Assembly (NCBI RefSeq): GCF_000243095.1
Contig: NZ_AHJE01000102.1
Location: forward strand, 1-64,000
Direction of reading: 5' to 3'
DNA from: Cupriavidus basilensis OR16
Lineage (GTDB): Bacteria; Pseudomonadota; Gammaproteobacteria; Burkholderiales; Burkholderiaceae
Length of the DNA: 64,000 nucleotides
The notes below the pieces were generated by a model. It ran no database searches and was not told the origin of the DNA. It worked only from the letters and a program-made list of their open reading frames with translations. Numbering within the stretch: the stretch's first letter is position 1; every line of letters starts with the position of its first letter. Positions 51,051-58,216 of this stretch are shown one piece after another. The position numbers and the translations under genes are program-made.

Positions 51051-51074
51051 ACCATCTACTTATTAGATAGATAT
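51051..51074. promoter_or_regulatory. Operator-like sequence upstream of wrbA, shared with the lysR gene at 57.3 kb
   Basis: ACCATCTA-N3-ATTAGATAGATAT lies 90 bp before the wrbA start. The sequence at 57286-57309 is identical except for the three middle bases. It contains ATCTA and TAGAT half-sites consistent with a LysR-type operator. Confidence 0.6.
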
Positions 51075-51164
51075 TATCGAAATTAATAGGCTACCGAGAT
51101 GGATGGGTGGCAGCTACGATTCAGCTCATACGGCTCGCTGAGCCGCGCCACCAGGAGAGTTCAA

Positions 51165-51764
51165 ATGACCAAGGTTCTTGTTCTGTATTACTCGTCGTAC
51201 GGCCACATCGAAAGAATGGCGAATGCCATTGCCGAAGGCGCGCGCGCAGCGGGCGCTCTCGTCGACGTCAAGCGCGTGCCCGAGACCGTGCCGGAAGACA
51301 TCGCAAAAAGCGCTTACTTCAAGCTTGATCAATCCGCCGCGGTCGCCACGGTTGCAGAACTCGAGCACTACGATGCGATCGTCGTCGGCACCGGCACGCG
51401 CTTCGGCCGCATGTCCTCGCAGATGGCGTCGTTCCTTGATCAAGCTGGTGGCCTCTGGGTACGCGGCGCGCTCAACGGCAAAGTCGGCGCGGCCTTTTCG
51501 TCGAGTGCGACACAGCACGGCGGCCAGGAAACCACGCTTTTCTCCATCATCACCAACCTGCTGCACTTCGGCATGACGATCGTGGGATTGCCGTATAGCC
51601 ATCAGGGCCAGATGAGCATGTCCGAGATTGTCGGCGGTGCCCCGTATGGCGCGACCACCGTCGCCGGTGGCGACGGCTCGCGCCAGCCGAGCGAGATCGA
51701 CCTCGCTGGCGCCCGCCACCAGGGAGAACTGGTCGCGAAGACGGCGGCCAAGCTTCGCGCCTGA
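51165..51764 (+). CDS. wrbA: NAD(P)H:quinone oxidoreductase WrbA
   Basis: WrbA is a flavodoxin-like FMN enzyme that reduces quinones by two electrons, avoiding radicals. The 199-residue protein has the FMN phosphate loop ([20 protein letters not shown]), [19 protein letters not shown], and [16 protein letters not shown] choose ATG 51165, behind AGGAGAG, which gives the standard length; a longer frame upstream is not WrbA-like. It begins an operon of quinone- and redox-type genes and has an operator-like repeat upstream. Confidence 0.96.
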
Positions 51765-51813
51765 ATACGGCACACCGCCCGCAGCAGAGCCCCCCCTTCG
51801 AACGGAGCAAATC

Positions 51814-52260
51814 ATGCAACAACAAGACATCGGCGAGATCGCCAAGGCCGTAGTGCGTCGCAATACCACGGAAGTCCAGGGTGGCGGTGACTGGGCCCTG
51901 TTCGACGCCCTGTTCTCGGACGACTTCCTGGACCACACCCCGCAACCGAATTGCACCCCGGACAAGGCCGGCGCGTTGGGCCTGTATCGCAAGCTGCGGG
52001 AGGCATTCCCCGACTTCCACGCCGAAATCCACTGGCAGCGCGCGGTCGGCGATGTGGTCACCACCTACAAGACCTACCATGGCACGCACAAGGGCGACTT
52101 CCTGGGTATTGCGCCGACGAACCGCGCGGTGCGGTTCGAGACGGTCGACGCCATGCGGGTGCAAGACGGCAAGATCACCGAGCATTGGGGTGTCGCCAAT
52201 CTGTTCTCGGTGCTTCAGCAACTGGGCGCATGGCCCGTCGGCTCTGGAGAGCCCGCATGA
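51814..52260 (+). CDS. Ester cyclase / SnoaL-like polyketide cyclase family protein
   Basis: This small NTF2-fold protein is of the SnoaL-like ester cyclase group, which act on or bind small cyclic molecules. The 148-residue product has the patterns DALFSDDFLDHTPQPN, FPDFHAEIHWQRAVGDVV, GIAPTNRAVRFETVDAMRVQDGKITEHWGVANLFSVLQQLG. The His and Asp residues in the pocket are typical. The true activity is unknown. It lies 50 bp after wrbA and overlaps the SDR gene by four bases (ATGA). Confidence 0.85.
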   Translation: MQQQDIGEIAKAVVRRNTTEVQGGGDWALFDALFSDDFLDHTPQPNCTPDKAGALGLYRKLREAFPDFHAEIHWQRAVGDVVTTYKTYHGTHKGDFLGIAPTNRAVRFETVDAMRVQDGKITEHWGVANLFSVLQQLGAWPVGSGEPA

Positions 52261-53030
52261 ACACCAACATCCTCGCTGGCAAGGTCGTGGTTGTGACCGG
52301 CGCGGCCAGTGGCATCGGCAAGGCGGTTGCCGTCCAGGCTGCCCGCCATGGCGCCAAGGCGATCATTGTCTCGGACCTGAACGCCGAGCCGCGCGAGGGC
52401 GGGCGCTCCACCCTCGCCGAGATCTCGGATATTGGCGTGCCCGCACGGTTCCATCGGGCTGACGTCAGCCAGCGCGCCGACGTCGACGCGCTGGTCGAGG
52501 CGGCAGAAGCATTTGGCGGCATCGACGTGATGGTGGCCAACGCCGGCATCACGGCAAAAGCCGACGGATTCGACGTCACCGAGGAGGACTTCCATCGCCT
52601 GATGCGGGTGAACCTGGACGGCACGCTCTTCAGCGCGCAGGCCGCCGCCCGGCGGATGAAGGCGAGCGGCAGGGCAGGAAGCATCGTGCTCATGGCCAGC
52701 ATGGGCGGGATCGCCGGCGCAGGCATCACGGTGGGCTACTCCACCAGCAAGGGCGGGGTCGTGCTGATGGCCAAGTCCCTGGCCGATGCCCTGGGGCCGG
52801 ACGGCATTCGCGTCAACGCCGTTGCCCCAGGGACCATCGATACACACCTGCTGCGCACAAGCCCCGGTATCGCCGAGGCGGCAGAGGGTTTTCGCCGGCG
52901 CACTCCGTTGCGCCGGCTCGGCAAGCCCTCGGAGATCGGTGACGCGGTGGCGTGGCTGGGCTCCGATCTGTCCAGTTATGTGACCGGCACCGCCTTGCTC
53001 GTCGACGGCGGACTGCTGGCCGTAATCTGA
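52257..53030 (+). CDS. Short-chain dehydrogenase/reductase
   Basis: This is an SDR oxidoreductase with cofactor motif VTGAASGIGKAVAVQ, the NAG motif (ANAGITAK), catalytic Ser in VLMASMGGIAG, and YSTSK catalytic Tyr/Lys. The ending YVTGTALLVDGG is that of FabG-like members. At 257 residues it is of classical type. The ATG overlaps the ester cyclase stop, so the two are translationally coupled. The substrate is unknown; the neighbours suggest quinone or carbonyl metabolism. Confidence 0.93.
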   Translation: MNTNILAGKVVVVTGAASGIGKAVAVQAARHGAKAIIVSDLNAEPREGGRSTLAEISDIGVPARFHRADVSQRADVDALVEAAEAFGGIDVMVANAGITAKADGFDVTEEDFHRLMRVNLDGTLFSAQAAARRMKASGRAGSIVLMASMGGIAGAGITVGYSTSKGGVVLMAKSLADALGPDGIRVNAVAPGTIDTHLLRTSPGIAEAAEGFRRRTPLRRLGKPSEIGDAVAWLGSDLSSYVTGTALLVDGGLLAVI

Positions 53031-53067
53031 AGACCAGCACTACAACCCATTCACAGGAGTACAAGAC

Positions 53068-54021
53068 ATGAGCACCGTCATCCGATTCCACGCCCACGGC
53101 GGCCCCGAGGTCCTCGAGGTGGAACAGCAAACCATTGCGCAACCCGGCCACGGCGAGGTTCGCCTGCGCCACGAGGCCATTGGCGTGAACTTCATCGACA
53201 CTATCTTCCGCAAGGGCATCTTCCCGGTGCCGTTGCCTTCCATCCCAGGCGTCGAAGGCGCTGGCGTTGTCGAGGCCCTGGGCGAAGGCGTACGCGGTTT
53301 CGCCGTGGGCGATCGCGTCGCCTACTTCCTGTCCCCGGGAAGCTATGCACAAGAGCGGACCATCGACGCCCAAGCCCTCGTCCAGCTGCCACGGGATGTG
53401 TCGGCCGAGCAGGCGGCGGCAGTCCTGACCAAAGGCCTGACGGCATGGTCCGCCCTTCACGGGTTCCATCAGATCAAGCGTGGCGAGACCATCCTTGTCC
53501 AGGGCGCGACCAGCGCGGTGGGCCGGCTCCTCTCGCGCTGGGCACGCGCGCTCGGCGCCACGGTGATCGGCACCGGCGGCGTTGCCAAGCAAGACACGCT
53601 GCGCGCGGATGTCGATCATGCACTGGCCTCGGATGATCCGGATCTCGGTGCGCAGATCCGCGATATCGCCCCTGCCGGCGTGGACGTCGTCTATGAATTC
53701 GTGGGCCAGGCCACCTTCGCGGCTTCGGTGGCGGCGGTGCGGGATGGCGGAACGATCGTGAACATCGGTGCCGCCTCGGGCGCGCCCGAGATCGACCAGG
53801 CCGCCCTCGCGGCTCGGCAAGTGCGCGTCGCCGGAGGGCCGATGGCCCAACACCTGCAAGGCCAGGCGCGCGACGAAGCCGTCGCCGCGGTGTTCGAAGC
53901 GCTGCGTACGGGTGTCTTCGGCGAGACCGAGCTTGCGCGCTACCCCCTCGCCGACGCGTCGCGCGCGCATGAGGACATCGCCGAACGCCGCCGCGCCGGC
54001 ACAGCCATTCTCATTCCCTGA
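53068..54021 (+). CDS. Quinone oxidoreductase, zeta-crystallin-like (MDR family)
   Basis: This NADPH-dependent quinone reductase of the medium-chain dehydrogenase family lacks the zinc sites of alcohol dehydrogenases. The 317-residue protein starts MSTVIRFHAHGGPEVLEVEQQT. It has VNFIDTIFRKGIFPVPLPSIPGVEGAGVVEALGEGV, the GATSAVGRLLSRWARALGATVIGT Rossmann loop, and the ending AHEDIAERRRAGTAILIP. It is intact and sits 38 bp after the SDR, in the wrbA operon. Confidence 0.93.
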   Translation: MSTVIRFHAHGGPEVLEVEQQTIAQPGHGEVRLRHEAIGVNFIDTIFRKGIFPVPLPSIPGVEGAGVVEALGEGVRGFAVGDRVAYFLSPGSYAQERTIDAQALVQLPRDVSAEQAAAVLTKGLTAWSALHGFHQIKRGETILVQGATSAVGRLLSRWARALGATVIGTGGVAKQDTLRADVDHALASDDPDLGAQIRDIAPAGVDVVYEFVGQATFAASVAAVRDGGTIVNIGAASGAPEIDQAALAARQVRVAGGPMAQHLQGQARDEAVAAVFEALRTGVFGETELARYPLADASRAHEDIAERRRAGTAILIP

Positions 54022-54124
54022 GCTCATTCCCTGAGGCGCTCGCGGCGCAAGCGCCCTGCCTCGCGCCGCGGCTGTCAGCACGGGCGCCTGCCGCCCGGCC
54101 TCTAAGCTACCTGGAGACCAAACG

Positions 54125-54784
54125 ATGCAACATACCACCCTGATCAAGGGCCGCACCGACCTGCGCACGGCAGACGCCCTGACCCTGATGAATGTCTCGC
54201 CGAAGTTCGACGTCACGCAATGGCCCAGGCAGGTGGAGAGGTTCCTGCACGACACGGAGAATCCTCTGCACCGGGCAATCCTCAAGAACTACCTGCGCCA
54301 CCTCCTGCTGGAAGTCTCCGGCCATTGGAACCAGATCATCGTGCCCGAACTCACCGTGGAAGAGCCCATGTATCGCGTGGGAGACCGGCGGGAGATGCGG
54401 GTCTTCACGGGCAAGGCCGCCGTCGAAGGCTTCTATCGCGAAGCGTTTGAAACCCGGACCAACGTCATGGGCGCGCGGACCATGAATATGGGCGTCGAAG
54501 ACTATGGCGTTACCACCGAGGCCGTCTGGACGCACGTCGTTCCCGGCGCGATGCTCGGGGACCATGATATCGACGCGGATCCCGCGGCGCACTACCTCAT
54601 GACACATCACCTGTTCCAGATCTTTACCTATACCAGCGAGGCCAGGCCCAGGCTGATCGCGGAGCGGATCTACGATGACCCGGAGAGCTACAGCTACCAA
54701 AAGCTGGCGCCGGCAGACGTCGTGACGCCGGAGATGGCCCGCGCACAGCTGGCGCCATTCCTGGCGCGTGCGACGCTTGAGTAG
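54125..54784 (+). CDS. NTF2-fold / SnoaL-like protein of unknown function
   Basis: This is a 219-residue soluble protein with an alpha-plus-beta build consistent with the NTF2/SnoaL fold: FLHDTENPLHRAILKNYLRHLLLEVSGHWNQI, then a charged sheet (MYRVGDRREMRVFTGKAAVEGFYREAF). No catalytic motif is recognised. It may bind a small ligand related to the quinone-type enzymes upstream. It lies 103 bp after the quinone reductase, same strand. Confidence 0.75.
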   Translation: MQHTTLIKGRTDLRTADALTLMNVSPKFDVTQWPRQVERFLHDTENPLHRAILKNYLRHLLLEVSGHWNQIIVPELTVEEPMYRVGDRREMRVFTGKAAVEGFYREAFETRTNVMGARTMNMGVEDYGVTTEAVWTHVVPGAMLGDHDIDADPAAHYLMTHHLFQIFTYTSEARPRLIAERIYDDPESYSYQKLAPADVVTPEMARAQLAPFLARATLE

Positions 54785-54969
54785 GCTGGGCGGAGGACCC
54801 GTTGTCAGACACGCCGGCACGCTGCATGTCGGTTGCGTCCCGCTTTCGCCGTGGGCGCGGTGGCGCCGCGTTGATGAACCCGAGGCCTGACGACGGGACC
54901 ACCGGGCTAAGCGACCCCACCACGCCAGCCTCCTGCAAGCAGGTACGAGTCAATCACATGGGTAACACC

Positions 54970-55400
54970 CTGAGGCTCAGATAGCCATTCTGGTCTGGCG
55001 TTCGTCGATCTGGCCCAATGCCATCGGGCCGGAAAAGTCGACGCGCCATATCGACACGCCACCATCCCTCTCCAATCCCTCTCCAATCGCGTCCAGTCCA
55101 ACGGTTACGCCGTGGCGCAAGTCCCACGTAGATGATCTTCCCGGCCCTGTGGATCAAGCCGCTGCTGGTCACCTGGTGAGGCTCGACGTGGCGCGCGGAC
55201 TCCATCTTCGGCAACCGACTCGGATAGGCGCGCACTGACTCCGAATAGCAGCTCCCAGGGGGTGCTCTGGCGCAACGCTTCGTGCGGCCTCCGCACGTGA
55301 TGGCAGCGCCGGAACGCATCCATCCGCCGCTGCTGCGCCTCAGCGTGGCAGCCGGCGGTTGTGCCGTAGGCATCCACTCGTGCCGCCCGTCGTTGCTCCG
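54970..55400 (-). pseudogene. Decayed IS481/IS3-like transposase remnant
   Basis: Fragments in different minus-strand frames resemble the C-terminal end of integrase-type transposases: RRPHEALRQSTPWELL (the RPHEAL-x-x-x-TP motif) followed by PSRLPKMESARHVEPHQV, VTSSGLIHRAGK, and LGQIDERQTR-like text. The order is right but frames are broken and the catalytic core is missing. I cannot define the element's ends. The 54785-55747 gap holds nothing else but a terminator-like hairpin. Confidence 0.6.
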
Positions 55401-55694
55401 GATGTTCCCGGATTGGTAGTACAGCGGATAGCGGCCGGCACGGTCCACTACCGTCAGCGGAAAGCACCACCGCCAAGGTGGGGGATTGGTATTTGTGGGA
55501 AGGGAGGGGCATCCGGGCTTGCGCTATCGGCACGTCAGAGACAATGCGATCGACGGCGCTACGATGGCAGCGCTAATTGCGCGGAGATGTCCGGATGCTA
55601 TCCAGGAGGTGCCATGAATCCACGGCGCGTTCACGAAGTCATGCGCCAGGATTTTCCAGCTTCCGATGCGGCGCCACGAGCGTGGAAACGCCGA

Positions 55695-55733
55695 AACCCG
55701 GGTAGCGAGGCGGTGCCTCGGCTATCCCGGGTT
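55695..55733 (-). terminator. Strong hairpin after doxX, likely terminator
   Basis: Arms AACCCGGG-TAGC-GAGGC and GCCTC-GGCTA-TCCCGGGTT pair nearly perfectly with a 3-base loop and two one-base bulges. It lies 14 bp past the doxX stop on the minus strand, where it is followed by TT-rich sequence. Confidence 0.6.
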
Positions 55734-55747
55734 GCAGGACCTTGTCG

Positions 55748-56185
55748 TTACTGCGCCGCTACAGCCCGCGTCACTTGCGTGCGGCGGCCATCGAAGCTGA
55801 ACGCGCCGGCGCCGTAGTACATCACCTGCACCAGGCCGCCTGCCATGGCCAGGTTCTTGAGGAAGTGGAACATCTGGTTCTGGTCGCCCAGCGCATGGTG
55901 GAAGATCAGCGCGGTCAACACGGCGTAGACCGCAAGCAGCGTGGCCACCAGTCGCGTCCGGTAGCCGGCGATGAGCAGCACGCTGCCGGCGAGTTCGAGC
56001 ACCAGTGCGCCGAAGTAGCCCAGCGCCGGCACAGGCAGACCGAGCGAGCCGATATAGCCGATGGTAGCGGCAGGTGCCATCAATTTGCCAATAGCGCTGA
56101 CGAGGAAGATGGCGGCGATGAGAATGCGGCCGATCAGGGGAAGGGCCGGGTGTGCATTGGCGTTGGTCGAAGTCATGGTTTGCAT
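55748..56185 (-). CDS. DoxX-family inner-membrane protein
   Basis: DoxX-type proteins are small four-helix membrane proteins linked to thiol or quinone chemistry and oxidative stress. The 145-residue protein shows LPLIGRILIAAIFLVSAIGKLM, then GYFGALVLELAGSVLLIAGY, two further helices (LLAVYAVLTALIFHHAL) and NLAMAGGLVQVMYYGAGAFSFD at the end. It lies downstream of pirin on the same strand, separated by a repeat-rich leader, and probably shares control by the divergent LysR. Confidence 0.9.
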   Translation of the reverse strand: MQTMTSTNANAHPALPLIGRILIAAIFLVSAIGKLMAPAATIGYIGSLGLPVPALGYFGALVLELAGSVLLIAGYRTRLVATLLAVYAVLTALIFHHALGDQNQMFHFLKNLAMAGGLVQVMYYGAGAFSFDGRRTQVTRAVAAQ

Positions 56186-56201
56186 CCTTTGTTTGAAAAA
56201 T

Positions 56202-56279
56202 GTGAGGTGATGGGTAAGTGGTAGGTGGTGGGTGGTAGGTAGTAAGCGGTAAGTCGTGAGTACTGGGTACTGGGTAGTG
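56202..56279. repeat. G-rich GGTAGGTGG-type repeat between doxX and pirin
   Basis: On the plus strand the sequence is a run of short G-rich units (GGTAAGTGGTAGGTGGTG, GGTGGTAGGTAGTAAG, GTACTGGGTACTGGGTA). This is the 5' leader of doxX, which reads it as a C-rich transcript. The 128-bp gap has no gene. Confidence 0.55.
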
Positions 56280-56313
56280 ACGCGGAAAATGCGTGTCTCG
56301 CGGCCGCCGCGGG

Positions 56314-57207
56314 TTACCGCAGGCGACCCTCGGCGCGGAGCTGCATGCCGATCCGTGCAATCTCGGCTTCGCCCTTGCGCAGCGCCTCGTCCGACGTATG
56401 GACGGAGTAGTAGCCAAGCGACAGGTCGTGCGGATGCGGGATTGCCGACGCGACGATGAAATCCGCATCTGACTGGGCTGCAAATTCGAGCAGGTCTTCC
56501 GACTGGGCGAAGACAACGAGTTCGTCATGCAGGACCTCGTTGCCGACAGCCAGCGTGCCACGGTTGGCATGCGCCCAGGCCACCGTGTGGCCTTCGGGCG
56601 GCTGGTAGCGCCAGCGCTCGCCGGCGGCCAGGCGCACGTGCTGCAGCGCCACGCCGGCAGGCGCGGCAACCGGGCTGTTCCTGCCGGACTGGGTGCCGAG
56701 AATCACGCGTGCCGGACCCGCGCGCGGAATCGTCGAAGCGGGGAGGTACTGGCTATGCGGCAGCCCGTTTTCGAGACTGCGCGGCAAGGCGACCCAAAGC
56801 TGATAGCCTTGGAACCTCTCGCCCTTGGCGGGACTGGCGCCGTGCCAGATGCCATTTCCAGCTCGCATCCACTCCACACTGCCTGAATGCAGCACGCCGG
56901 CCGCACCGGTCGTGTCCTCATAGTCCAGTTCGCCCTCGATCAGCACGGTGAGCGTGGCAATGCCCGAATGCGGGTGCATGGGGAACAGCGCGTCGCCGGA
57001 AGGCGCGAAGTCGAAGTAGTCGAGAAAGACAAAGGGCTTGATCAATTGCCCCACGTCTCCCGGGCTGACGATCCGCGTGACGGGGCCGTGCCGGCGCCCT
57101 TTGGTGCGCAGCACGATGGGACGGGTGGCTGCCGCTTGCGGCTGGGCCATGGGGTACCGGGTCTGGCGCTCTTCGGCTGCGCGTCCGGCTTGCGTTGCGG
57201 ATTTCAT
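56314..57207 (-). CDS. Pirin-family protein
   Basis: Pirins are bicupin metalloproteins; some bacterial ones act as quercetinases and others affect redox metabolism. The 297-residue protein has the N-terminal cupin pattern FVFLDYFDFAP, MHPHSGIATLTVLIEGELDYEDT and RAGNGIWHGAS, with the His/Glu metal ligands, and a second cupin (WAHANRGTLAVGNEVLHDELVVFAQ). ATG 57207 is preceded by GGAG. It is divergent from a LysR gene, the usual sign of control by it, and the same operator-like sequence lies between them. Confidence 0.9.
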   Translation of the reverse strand: MKSATQAGRAAEERQTRYPMAQPQAAATRPIVLRTKGRRHGPVTRIVSPGDVGQLIKPFVFLDYFDFAPSGDALFPMHPHSGIATLTVLIEGELDYEDTTGAAGVLHSGSVEWMRAGNGIWHGASPAKGERFQGYQLWVALPRSLENGLPHSQYLPASTIPRAGPARVILGTQSGRNSPVAAPAGVALQHVRLAAGERWRYQPPEGHTVAWAHANRGTLAVGNEVLHDELVVFAQSEDLLEFAAQSDADFIVASAIPHPHDLSLGYYSVHTSDEALRKGEAEIARIGMQLRAEGRLR

Positions 57208-57285
57208 GAAAGCTCCTTCAGTGATGCCATGACCGAAGGTTAGGTGCTTGACATCTATGCCGGTAGCCTATATTTATCGATGTGT

Positions 57286-57309
57286 ACCATCTATGGATTA
57301 GATAGATAT
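57286..57309. promoter_or_regulatory. Operator-like sequence at the lysR start, shared with wrbA
   Basis: ACCATCTA-N3-ATTAGATAGATAT overlaps the first two bases of the lysR ATG at 57308. It includes ATCTA-N5-TAGAT, a T-N11-A type LysR box (57289-57303). It matches 51051-51074 upstream of wrbA at 21 of 24 bases. Confidence 0.6.
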
Positions 57310-58216
57310 GCTTGACGGCGTCTCGCTGGATCAGTTGCGCACATTCATTGCCGCTGCCGACGAGGGCAGCTTCTCCGCTGCAGGCCGCAAGCTGCGCCGC
57401 GCGCAGTCGGTAGTGAGTCATACGCTCGCCAACCTCGAGAGCCAGATCGACGTGCAGTTGTTCGACCGCAACGGGCGCTACCCGCGCCTGACCGAACAAG
57501 GTACTGCGTTGCTGGCACAAGCGCGGATGGTAGTAAGCGGCATGGACGGCTTCAAGTCAAAGGCACGCGCGATTGCGGAGGGGCTTGAGCCGGAGCTGTC
57601 GGTGGTGGTCGATGTCATGTACCCGATGGCCTCGCTGACCGGGGCAGTCGGCGAGTTTCGCGATGCATTTCCGCACACGCCGCTGCGCCTGTACGTCGAG
57701 GCACTGGGTGCGGTCCTGCAGCCGGTGCTCGATGGCGTTTGCCGGATCGGCATCAGCGGATCGATGCCCGCAGTTCCGGAAACGCTTGACGCGGAAAAGC
57801 TGCTCGATGTGCCCATGGTCACCGTGACCGCGCCATCGCATCCACTGGCCGCGCACCGAGGTGTGATCCGCCAGCGCACACTGGAGGGCCACGTCCAACT
57901 GGTCCTGACCGACCGCACCACCCTGACCGAGGGCAAGACCTTCGGTGTTTTTGCGCCGCTCACCTGGCGTCTGGCCGATCTGGGTGCCAAACATGCTTTC
58001 CTGCGCGCCGGCTTCGGCTGGGGGCACATGCCGGTTGCCATGGTGCAGGAGGATCTCGATGCAGGCACCCTGGTCATGTTGCGCCTGGAGAACTTCCAGC
58101 CGCGAACCCCGCCCATTGCCATGTTCGCGGTCTACCGCAAGGATATGCCACCAGGCCCCGCCGGCCGCTGGTTCCTCAAACGGCTGATGCAGCCCTTGCC
58201 AGGTTCGTCGAAATAG
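57308..58216 (+). CDS. LysR-family transcriptional regulator
   Basis: This LysR-type regulator of 302 residues has the helix-turn-helix LRTFIAAADEGSFSAAGRKLRRAQSVVSHTLANLESQIDVQLFDRNGRYPRLT and an effector domain (LSVVVDVMYPMASLTGAVGEFRDAFPHTPLRL). It is divergent from pirin and doxX. The operator-like sequence spanning its start codon recurs before wrbA, so it may govern pirin-doxX, wrbA and itself. It sits in an oxidative/quinone stress context; the inducer is unknown. Confidence 0.92.
   Translation: MLDGVSLDQLRTFIAAADEGSFSAAGRKLRRAQSVVSHTLANLESQIDVQLFDRNGRYPRLTEQGTALLAQARMVVSGMDGFKSKARAIAEGLEPELSVVVDVMYPMASLTGAVGEFRDAFPHTPLRLYVEALGAVLQPVLDGVCRIGISGSMPAVPETLDAEKLLDVPMVTVTAPSHPLAAHRGVIRQRTLEGHVQLVLTDRTTLTEGKTFGVFAPLTWRLADLGAKHAFLRAGFGWGHMPVAMVQEDLDAGTLVMLRLENFQPRTPPIAMFAVYRKDMPPGPAGRWFLKRLMQPLPGSSK

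Follow-up and report, generated by a model that had tools for sequence, protein, structure and literature searches.

LysR-type promoters are known to carry a recognition site near -65 and an activation site near -35, and NodD is one of the LysR-type regulators. The two-site scheme is set out, without position numbers, in passages of PMC5031710 and PMC11739112. In Escherichia coli, the LysR regulator YhaJ is encoded divergently from the pirin-like gene yhaK and also regulates yqjF and yhhW; the YhaJ regulon, as given in PMC5031710, comprises yhaK, yqjF, yhhW, ygiD, and ybiJ, and YhaJ is required for hydroquinone and several other compounds to act as inducers. In strain K-12, yqjF is annotated as encoding a DoxX protein. 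The nod box of rhizobia is described in passages of PMC5596368 as a 47-bp element with an ATC-N9-GAT palindrome. Here we analyzed a stretch of 64,000 nucleotides from Cupriavidus basilensis OR16 (contig NZ_AHJE01000102.1, positions 1 to 64,000; the whole stretch is called the window), in which a promoter module containing an ATC-N9-GAT dyad was found between a LysR-type regulator gene (lysR, starting at 57308) and a divergent pirin gene, and again ahead of wrbA.

Judged from sequence comparison, a single LysR-type regulator very probably activates both pirin-doxX and the gene set wrbA-SnoaL-short-chain dehydrogenase (SDR)-quinone reductase, and represses its own gene, through this module. Control of pirin-doxX, lysR itself, and the wrbA operon by this LysR had been proposed in the initial annotation from a repeated 24-mer, and comparative evidence beyond the 24-mer now supports the proposal. 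This evidence consists of the module itself, its conservation, its fixed internal spacing, the genes in its company, and its co-occurrence with the regulator.

The 24-mer, ACCATCTA-N3-ATTAGATAGATAT, was located exactly at 51051-51074 and 57286-57309, with 21 of 24 bases identical and the differences confined, as described earlier, to the three centre bases (CTT and TGG). The first copy ended 90 bp ahead of the wrbA ATG (51165), and the second spanned the lysR ATG (57308). Its supposed improbability by chance was borne out, as these were the only two copies in the window at up to three mismatches and the mean over 100 dinucleotide shuffles of the window was 0. A genome scan for extra copies, also suggested earlier, returned two exact matches of the 20-base core in the assembly (8,546,215 bases), both within the window; the rest of the assembly held two matches at three mismatches and none closer, and the reversed control gave one. 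With so few core copies in 8.5 Mb, a dispersed repeat was ruled out. In the same genome, only the two window sites fell below E 0.4 with a sequence model (R1) built from 55 sites, although its E-values for the window and for genomes G029 and G009 are flattering because the window wrbA site and the sites of L039 and L048, records matching these two genomes, are in the model. The ends of the 24-mer (ACC..., ...AGATAT) corresponded to different elements in each module, and the same-strand identity is therefore partly coincidence. The true repeat is a longer module present in opposite orientations, into which the 24-mer cuts.

The module comprised, at equal spacing in both window copies, the ATC-N9-GAT dyad (T-N11-A), seven bases, ATCGA, and TAGGCTACCG, and thereby included a third half-site and a TAGGCT block, followed 22 nt further on by a TAnnnT -10 box. 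The first copy was oriented rightward to wrbA (+ strand) and the second leftward to pirin (- strand). In the wrbA promoter, the match to a 42-bp matrix (51052-51093, 47.9 bits) contained the predicted LysR recognition dyad ATCTA-CTTAT-TAGAT (51054..51068, +), centred at about -66 from the putative start, the third half-site ATCGA on the activation-site side (51076..51080, +; ATC at matrix positions 24-26), and the TAGGCT block as the putative activation site (ABS)/-35 region (51087..51092, +); the candidate -10 box, TACGAT, lay at 51115..51120 (+), module position 63-68. In the pirin promoter, the 42-bp module read away from lysR (57264..57305, -; 52.9 bits; model match E 1.7e-4), with a candidate -10 box TAACCT at 57237..57242 (-), position 63-68 of the leftward module. 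Its predicted dyad, ATCTA-ATCCA-TAGAT (57289..57303, -), belonged both to the pirin promoter, at about -66, and to the leader of lysR. A putative lysR promoter, TTGACA ... TATATT (57248..57274, +; 15-bp spacing, or 17 with TATTTA), overlapped the pirin promoter on the opposite strand. With TAnnnT taken as the -10, the dyad centre would fall near -66 and TAGGCT near -35. Transcription is predicted to begin near 51127 for wrbA, near 57230 for pirin, and at about 57282 for lysR.

Conservation was assessed beside lysR orthologues, taken as the best 80 of 104 relatives from named genomes; L113 had no upstream DNA and was excluded, leaving 79 loci, or 80 sequences with the window. Without the use of any motif, the half-sites (three GAT/ATC) and the GCCTAT block were 84-95% conserved in the 79 loci at set distances from the lysR ATG. 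For the 42-position matrix, 66 of the 79 loci were used, with the window excluded and 13 low-scoring loci omitted. Its element abutted the lysR ATG in 65 of these 66 and ended two bases earlier in the window, where the two sites scored 52.9 and 47.9 bits and the next position -12.8. No control position scored above 8 bits, either in reversed sequences scanned on both strands or in a mononucleotide shuffle scanned on one strand, and the maximum in first-order random sequence was 3.1 bits over 9.9 million positions. The element was found ahead of the lysR ATG in 77 of the 80 sequences, and 72 of these 77 sites carried TAnnnT at position 63-68, compared with at most two at other offsets. The first recognized gene divergent from lysR could be counted in 75 of the 77, since in L050 and L053 no open reading frame (ORF) with 90 aa began inside the first 450 nt. 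It was pirin in 39 cases (window included), doxX in 22, and wrbA in six (67 of 75 together); the remaining eight were SnoaL-like (two), isochorismatase-like (two), an NADP oxidoreductase, a gene without family assignment, an FAA hydrolase gene, and a close copy of the latter.

The same element recurred before the same types of genes at a distance from lysR. Nineteen such sites scored above 12 bits, and 18 were retained with a cut at 20 bits that was chosen after inspection; they were spread over 16 of the 80 sequences. The genes that followed were wrbA (seven, namely that of the window and six further ones), pirin (four), SnoaL (two), SDR (two), doxX (one), FMN reductase (one), and a major facilitator superfamily (MFS) transporter (one). 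All 18 carried TAnnnT at position 63-68, which lies outside the matrix, and none of 49 other offsets had it in more than one of the 18. GGCT (positions 37-40, part of the search matrix itself) had a frequency of 1.00 across the 18, and ATC at positions 24-26 had frequencies of 0.83-1.00 there and 0.96-0.99 beside lysR. TAGGCT or TATAGG itself was considered as the -10 and rejected, because GGCT persists in sites away from lysR whereas the TATA part does not, and because TAnnnT lies 22 nt beyond in all 18. The TATA part ahead of GGCT was near-constant in lysR-adjacent sites only, a pattern consistent with an opposite-strand -10 of lysR paired with TTGACA at 57248. For wrbA, both arrangements occurred: some genomes had it divergent from lysR, and in others, including a record named Cupriavidus basilensis (L061), it stood behind its own module.

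Two of these distant loci had features of their own. In Variovorax beijingensis (L058, 6089-6211), two modules stood back to back 39 bp apart, one facing doxX to the left and the other an SDR gene to the right. In Collimonas (L083, 11207-11248), a 49.1-bit module preceded the MFS transporter gene, and this may possibly represent an efflux arm of the regulon.

The distribution of the module followed that of the regulator. Among 60 genomes including the present one, a site below E 1e-3 was found with R1 in 8 of 8 with an orthologue of at least 61% identity and in 0 of 52 others. In 249 genomes of the family, a site (E 1e-3) occurred in 25, an orthologue (E 1e-95) in 27, and both in 23; the module was thus present in 23 of 27 genomes with an orthologue vs 2 of 222 without (Fisher p 3e-26). 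The site and orthologue scans were taken to cover the same 249 genomes from their equal size and the handles listed, and the filters of the site scan lose weak matches. The 32 sites of the family comprised 21 beside a lysR start, six elsewhere on the contig of the orthologue, and five on contigs without one. The last five were two in G218, two in G260 (whose orthologues were on other contigs), and one in G122, a weak site without the -10.

Taken together with the known architecture of LysR-type promoters, these features suggest the following model, in which binding, the tetramer shift, autorepression, and the inducer are what we infer from sequence. The 24-mer would represent the core of the predicted binding site of the regulator encoded from 57308. 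A tetramer of the regulator would hold the ATC-N9-GAT dyad as its recognition site (about -66), and upon a small-molecule signal, the second dimer would move onto the ATCGA/TAGGCT region as the activation site (about -35). The shifted tetramer may then recruit RNA polymerase to the -10 box, activating transcription of pirin-doxX to the left and of wrbA-SnoaL-SDR-quinone reductase to the right. At lysR, the recognition dyad would sit just downstream of the putative start (about +7 to +21) and beside the start codon, and binding there is therefore predicted to repress lysR. The signal would be a quinone or hydroquinone that is reduced or broken down by products of the regulon; the kinds of genes present and the parallel to YhaJ make this the most likely type of inducer.

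Several observations weigh against this model and the control it assumes. Much of the co-occurrence is automatic, because 21 of the 32 family sites adjoin a lysR start. Sites were present without an orthologue at E 1e-95 in G122 and G218, and orthologues without a site at E 1e-3 in G166, G197, G198, and G258. The lysR-adjacent site was absent from L070, L075, and L077 (3 of 80), five of the 77 lysR-adjacent sites had no -10, and the nineteenth distant site (L050, 14.1 bits) had none at position 63. The 18 retained sites are not phylogenetically independent, and the MFS transporter gene behind one of them lies outside the other gene types. Further, the wrbA operon as a block had only partial matches in 36 other genomes, among the matches listed. 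Finally, paralogous LysR genes of the genus have their own ATC-N9-GAT boxes (L019, L020, L022, L023), and hence the dyad alone cannot name its binder. The last point leads to an alternative in which a paralogous LysR, for example the 51% identical one at C296 or one of a group at about 37%, binds these sites besides or instead of the 57308 product. The genome offers many candidates (39 scored matches to LysR genes), but the full module was absent from the 24 other LysR loci scanned (L013-L034, L165, L166; best -10.1 bits), and it follows the orthologues of the 57308 regulator, not the genus. Binding by a paralogue is accordingly considered unlikely.

A mobile element might also have brought in a duplicated promoter, which would then be shared without present shared regulation. 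A stretch matching an integrase-core gene does separate the two gene sets, and the other genomes searched yielded the wrbA set in pieces only, among the matches listed. On the other hand, the two copies had no evident similarity beyond the module in an ungapped view, the bases they share are those kept across genera, and wrbA has a diverged but intact module of its own in Pandoraea (L062, L063), Herbaspirillum (L059), and the record named Cupriavidus basilensis (L061), leaving this explanation with a very small probability. That the likeness merely reflects chance or low complexity is suggested by the AT-rich composition and intergenic position of both copies, traits of many promoters; the counts refute it almost completely, since the expected number of copies was 0, the window sites stood about 60 bits over all other window positions, and the spacing to the -10 is fixed. 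Control by the regulator encoded from 57308 remains the preferred explanation.

The lysR gene (57308..58216, +) encodes a protein with an N-terminal winged helix-turn-helix and a C-terminal LysR substrate domain (Pfam PF00126, 1.8e-19; PF03466, 2.3e-24), and is divergent from its likely target pirin (56314..57207, -; PF02678), with the T-N11-A dyad between them; doxX (55748..56185, -; PF07681) lies on the same strand as pirin. The other gene set begins with wrbA (51165..51764, +), whose product was identified by NCBIfam TIGR01755 (302 bits against a cut-off of 132.5) as NAD(P)H:quinone oxidoreductase type IV. It continues with genes for a SnoaL-like cyclase/isomerase fold protein (51820..52260, +; PF07366), an SDR (52251..53030, +; PF13561), and a quinone reductase-like dehydrogenase of the zinc-type alcohol dehydrogenase superfamily (53068..54021, +; PF00107/PF08240), for which the best NCBIfam match, PRK10754 NADPH:quinone reductase, reached 200.7 bits where the cut-off asks for 348. 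A conserved 219-aa protein encoded at 54125..54784 (+) may be the product of the last gene of the wrbA operon; it had no Pfam match, even at E 5, and its relatives in Paraburkholderia (78-79%; L050, L052, L056) are encoded close to the lysR orthologue. Between the wrbA operon and doxX, the stretch 54950-55560 matched, over 100 bases and at 76%, an integrase-core gene carried by a C. taiwanensis plasmid. Two ORFs tested in it had no Pfam domain, and the stretch is probably a transposase relic.

In a wider and more tentative reading, which we hold to be somewhat less probable than its opposite, an unnamed, widespread LysR subfamily acts as a sensor of quinones or hydroquinones and has its own cassette of about 69 bp, which is placed before different detoxification genes. 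If so, the cassette would consist of the dyad, the third half-site, TAGGCT, and the fixed -10, its targets would be pirin, doxX, wrbA, SnoaL, SDR, or FMN reductase genes depending on the genome, and the regulon would have been rebuilt with exchangeable enzymes. The module provides a computable operator for a LysR group that is unnamed by the NCBIfam models among the matches listed, and targets of this group can be predicted in many beta-proteobacteria. It also joins pirin, DoxX, and WrbA in one predicted response, beside that of E. coli YhaJ, for which PMC5031710 gives hydroquinone as an inducer.

As to the identity of the regulator, the best NCBIfam LysR equivalog matches were PunR, AceR, and AllS, which aligned with most of the protein at 96-108 bits. 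Their cut-offs are 345-500 bits, and all LysR models among the 25 of 48 matches listed scored below theirs; with scores so far below the cut-offs, none of the three names was assigned. In searches of open PMC papers, no regulon joining LysR, pirin, and wrbA and no specific name for the regulator were found. Passages of a Pseudomonas fluorescens In5 report list a pirin and a DoxX gene in the same expression table and mention LysR genes elsewhere, and no such regulon was found in these passages. The 57308 protein was also considered as the YhaJ orthologue and rejected, since C375 scored 120 bits against YhaJ (55%, residues 5-122) vs 83 bits (27%) for the 57308 protein. The closest YhaJ relative here (L166; G000 C375 75637-76543) matched in two separate pieces, perhaps owing to a frameshift or an assembly error.

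The locus nevertheless resembles the YhaJ system as portrayed in PMC5031710 in having a LysR-type activator (predicted as such here) divergent from a pirin-like gene, a DoxX gene among its targets, which in E. coli lies elsewhere, and a T-N11-A box in the promoters; in addition, the window DoxX and E. coli YqjF shared 33% identity across 118 aa. It differs in that the E. coli box is TCA-N7-TGA in that source whereas the conserved dyad here is ATC-N9-GAT, in the 28% identity between the 57308 regulator and YhaJ, and in wrbA, which goes unmentioned in the main text of PMC5031710. The 12-kb E. coli yhaJ region contained no module (best -3.7 bits). With NodD and the nod box, the locus shares an ATC-N9-GAT palindrome inside a long promoter element, a likeness that covers the palindrome and the element length; the genes downstream are pirin, doxX, wrbA, SnoaL, SDR, and a few other types, not nod genes. 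From its sequence, the 57308 protein is a LysR family member with a YhaJ-like logic that is neither YhaJ nor NodD. The predicted kind of control is of the familiar LysR type.

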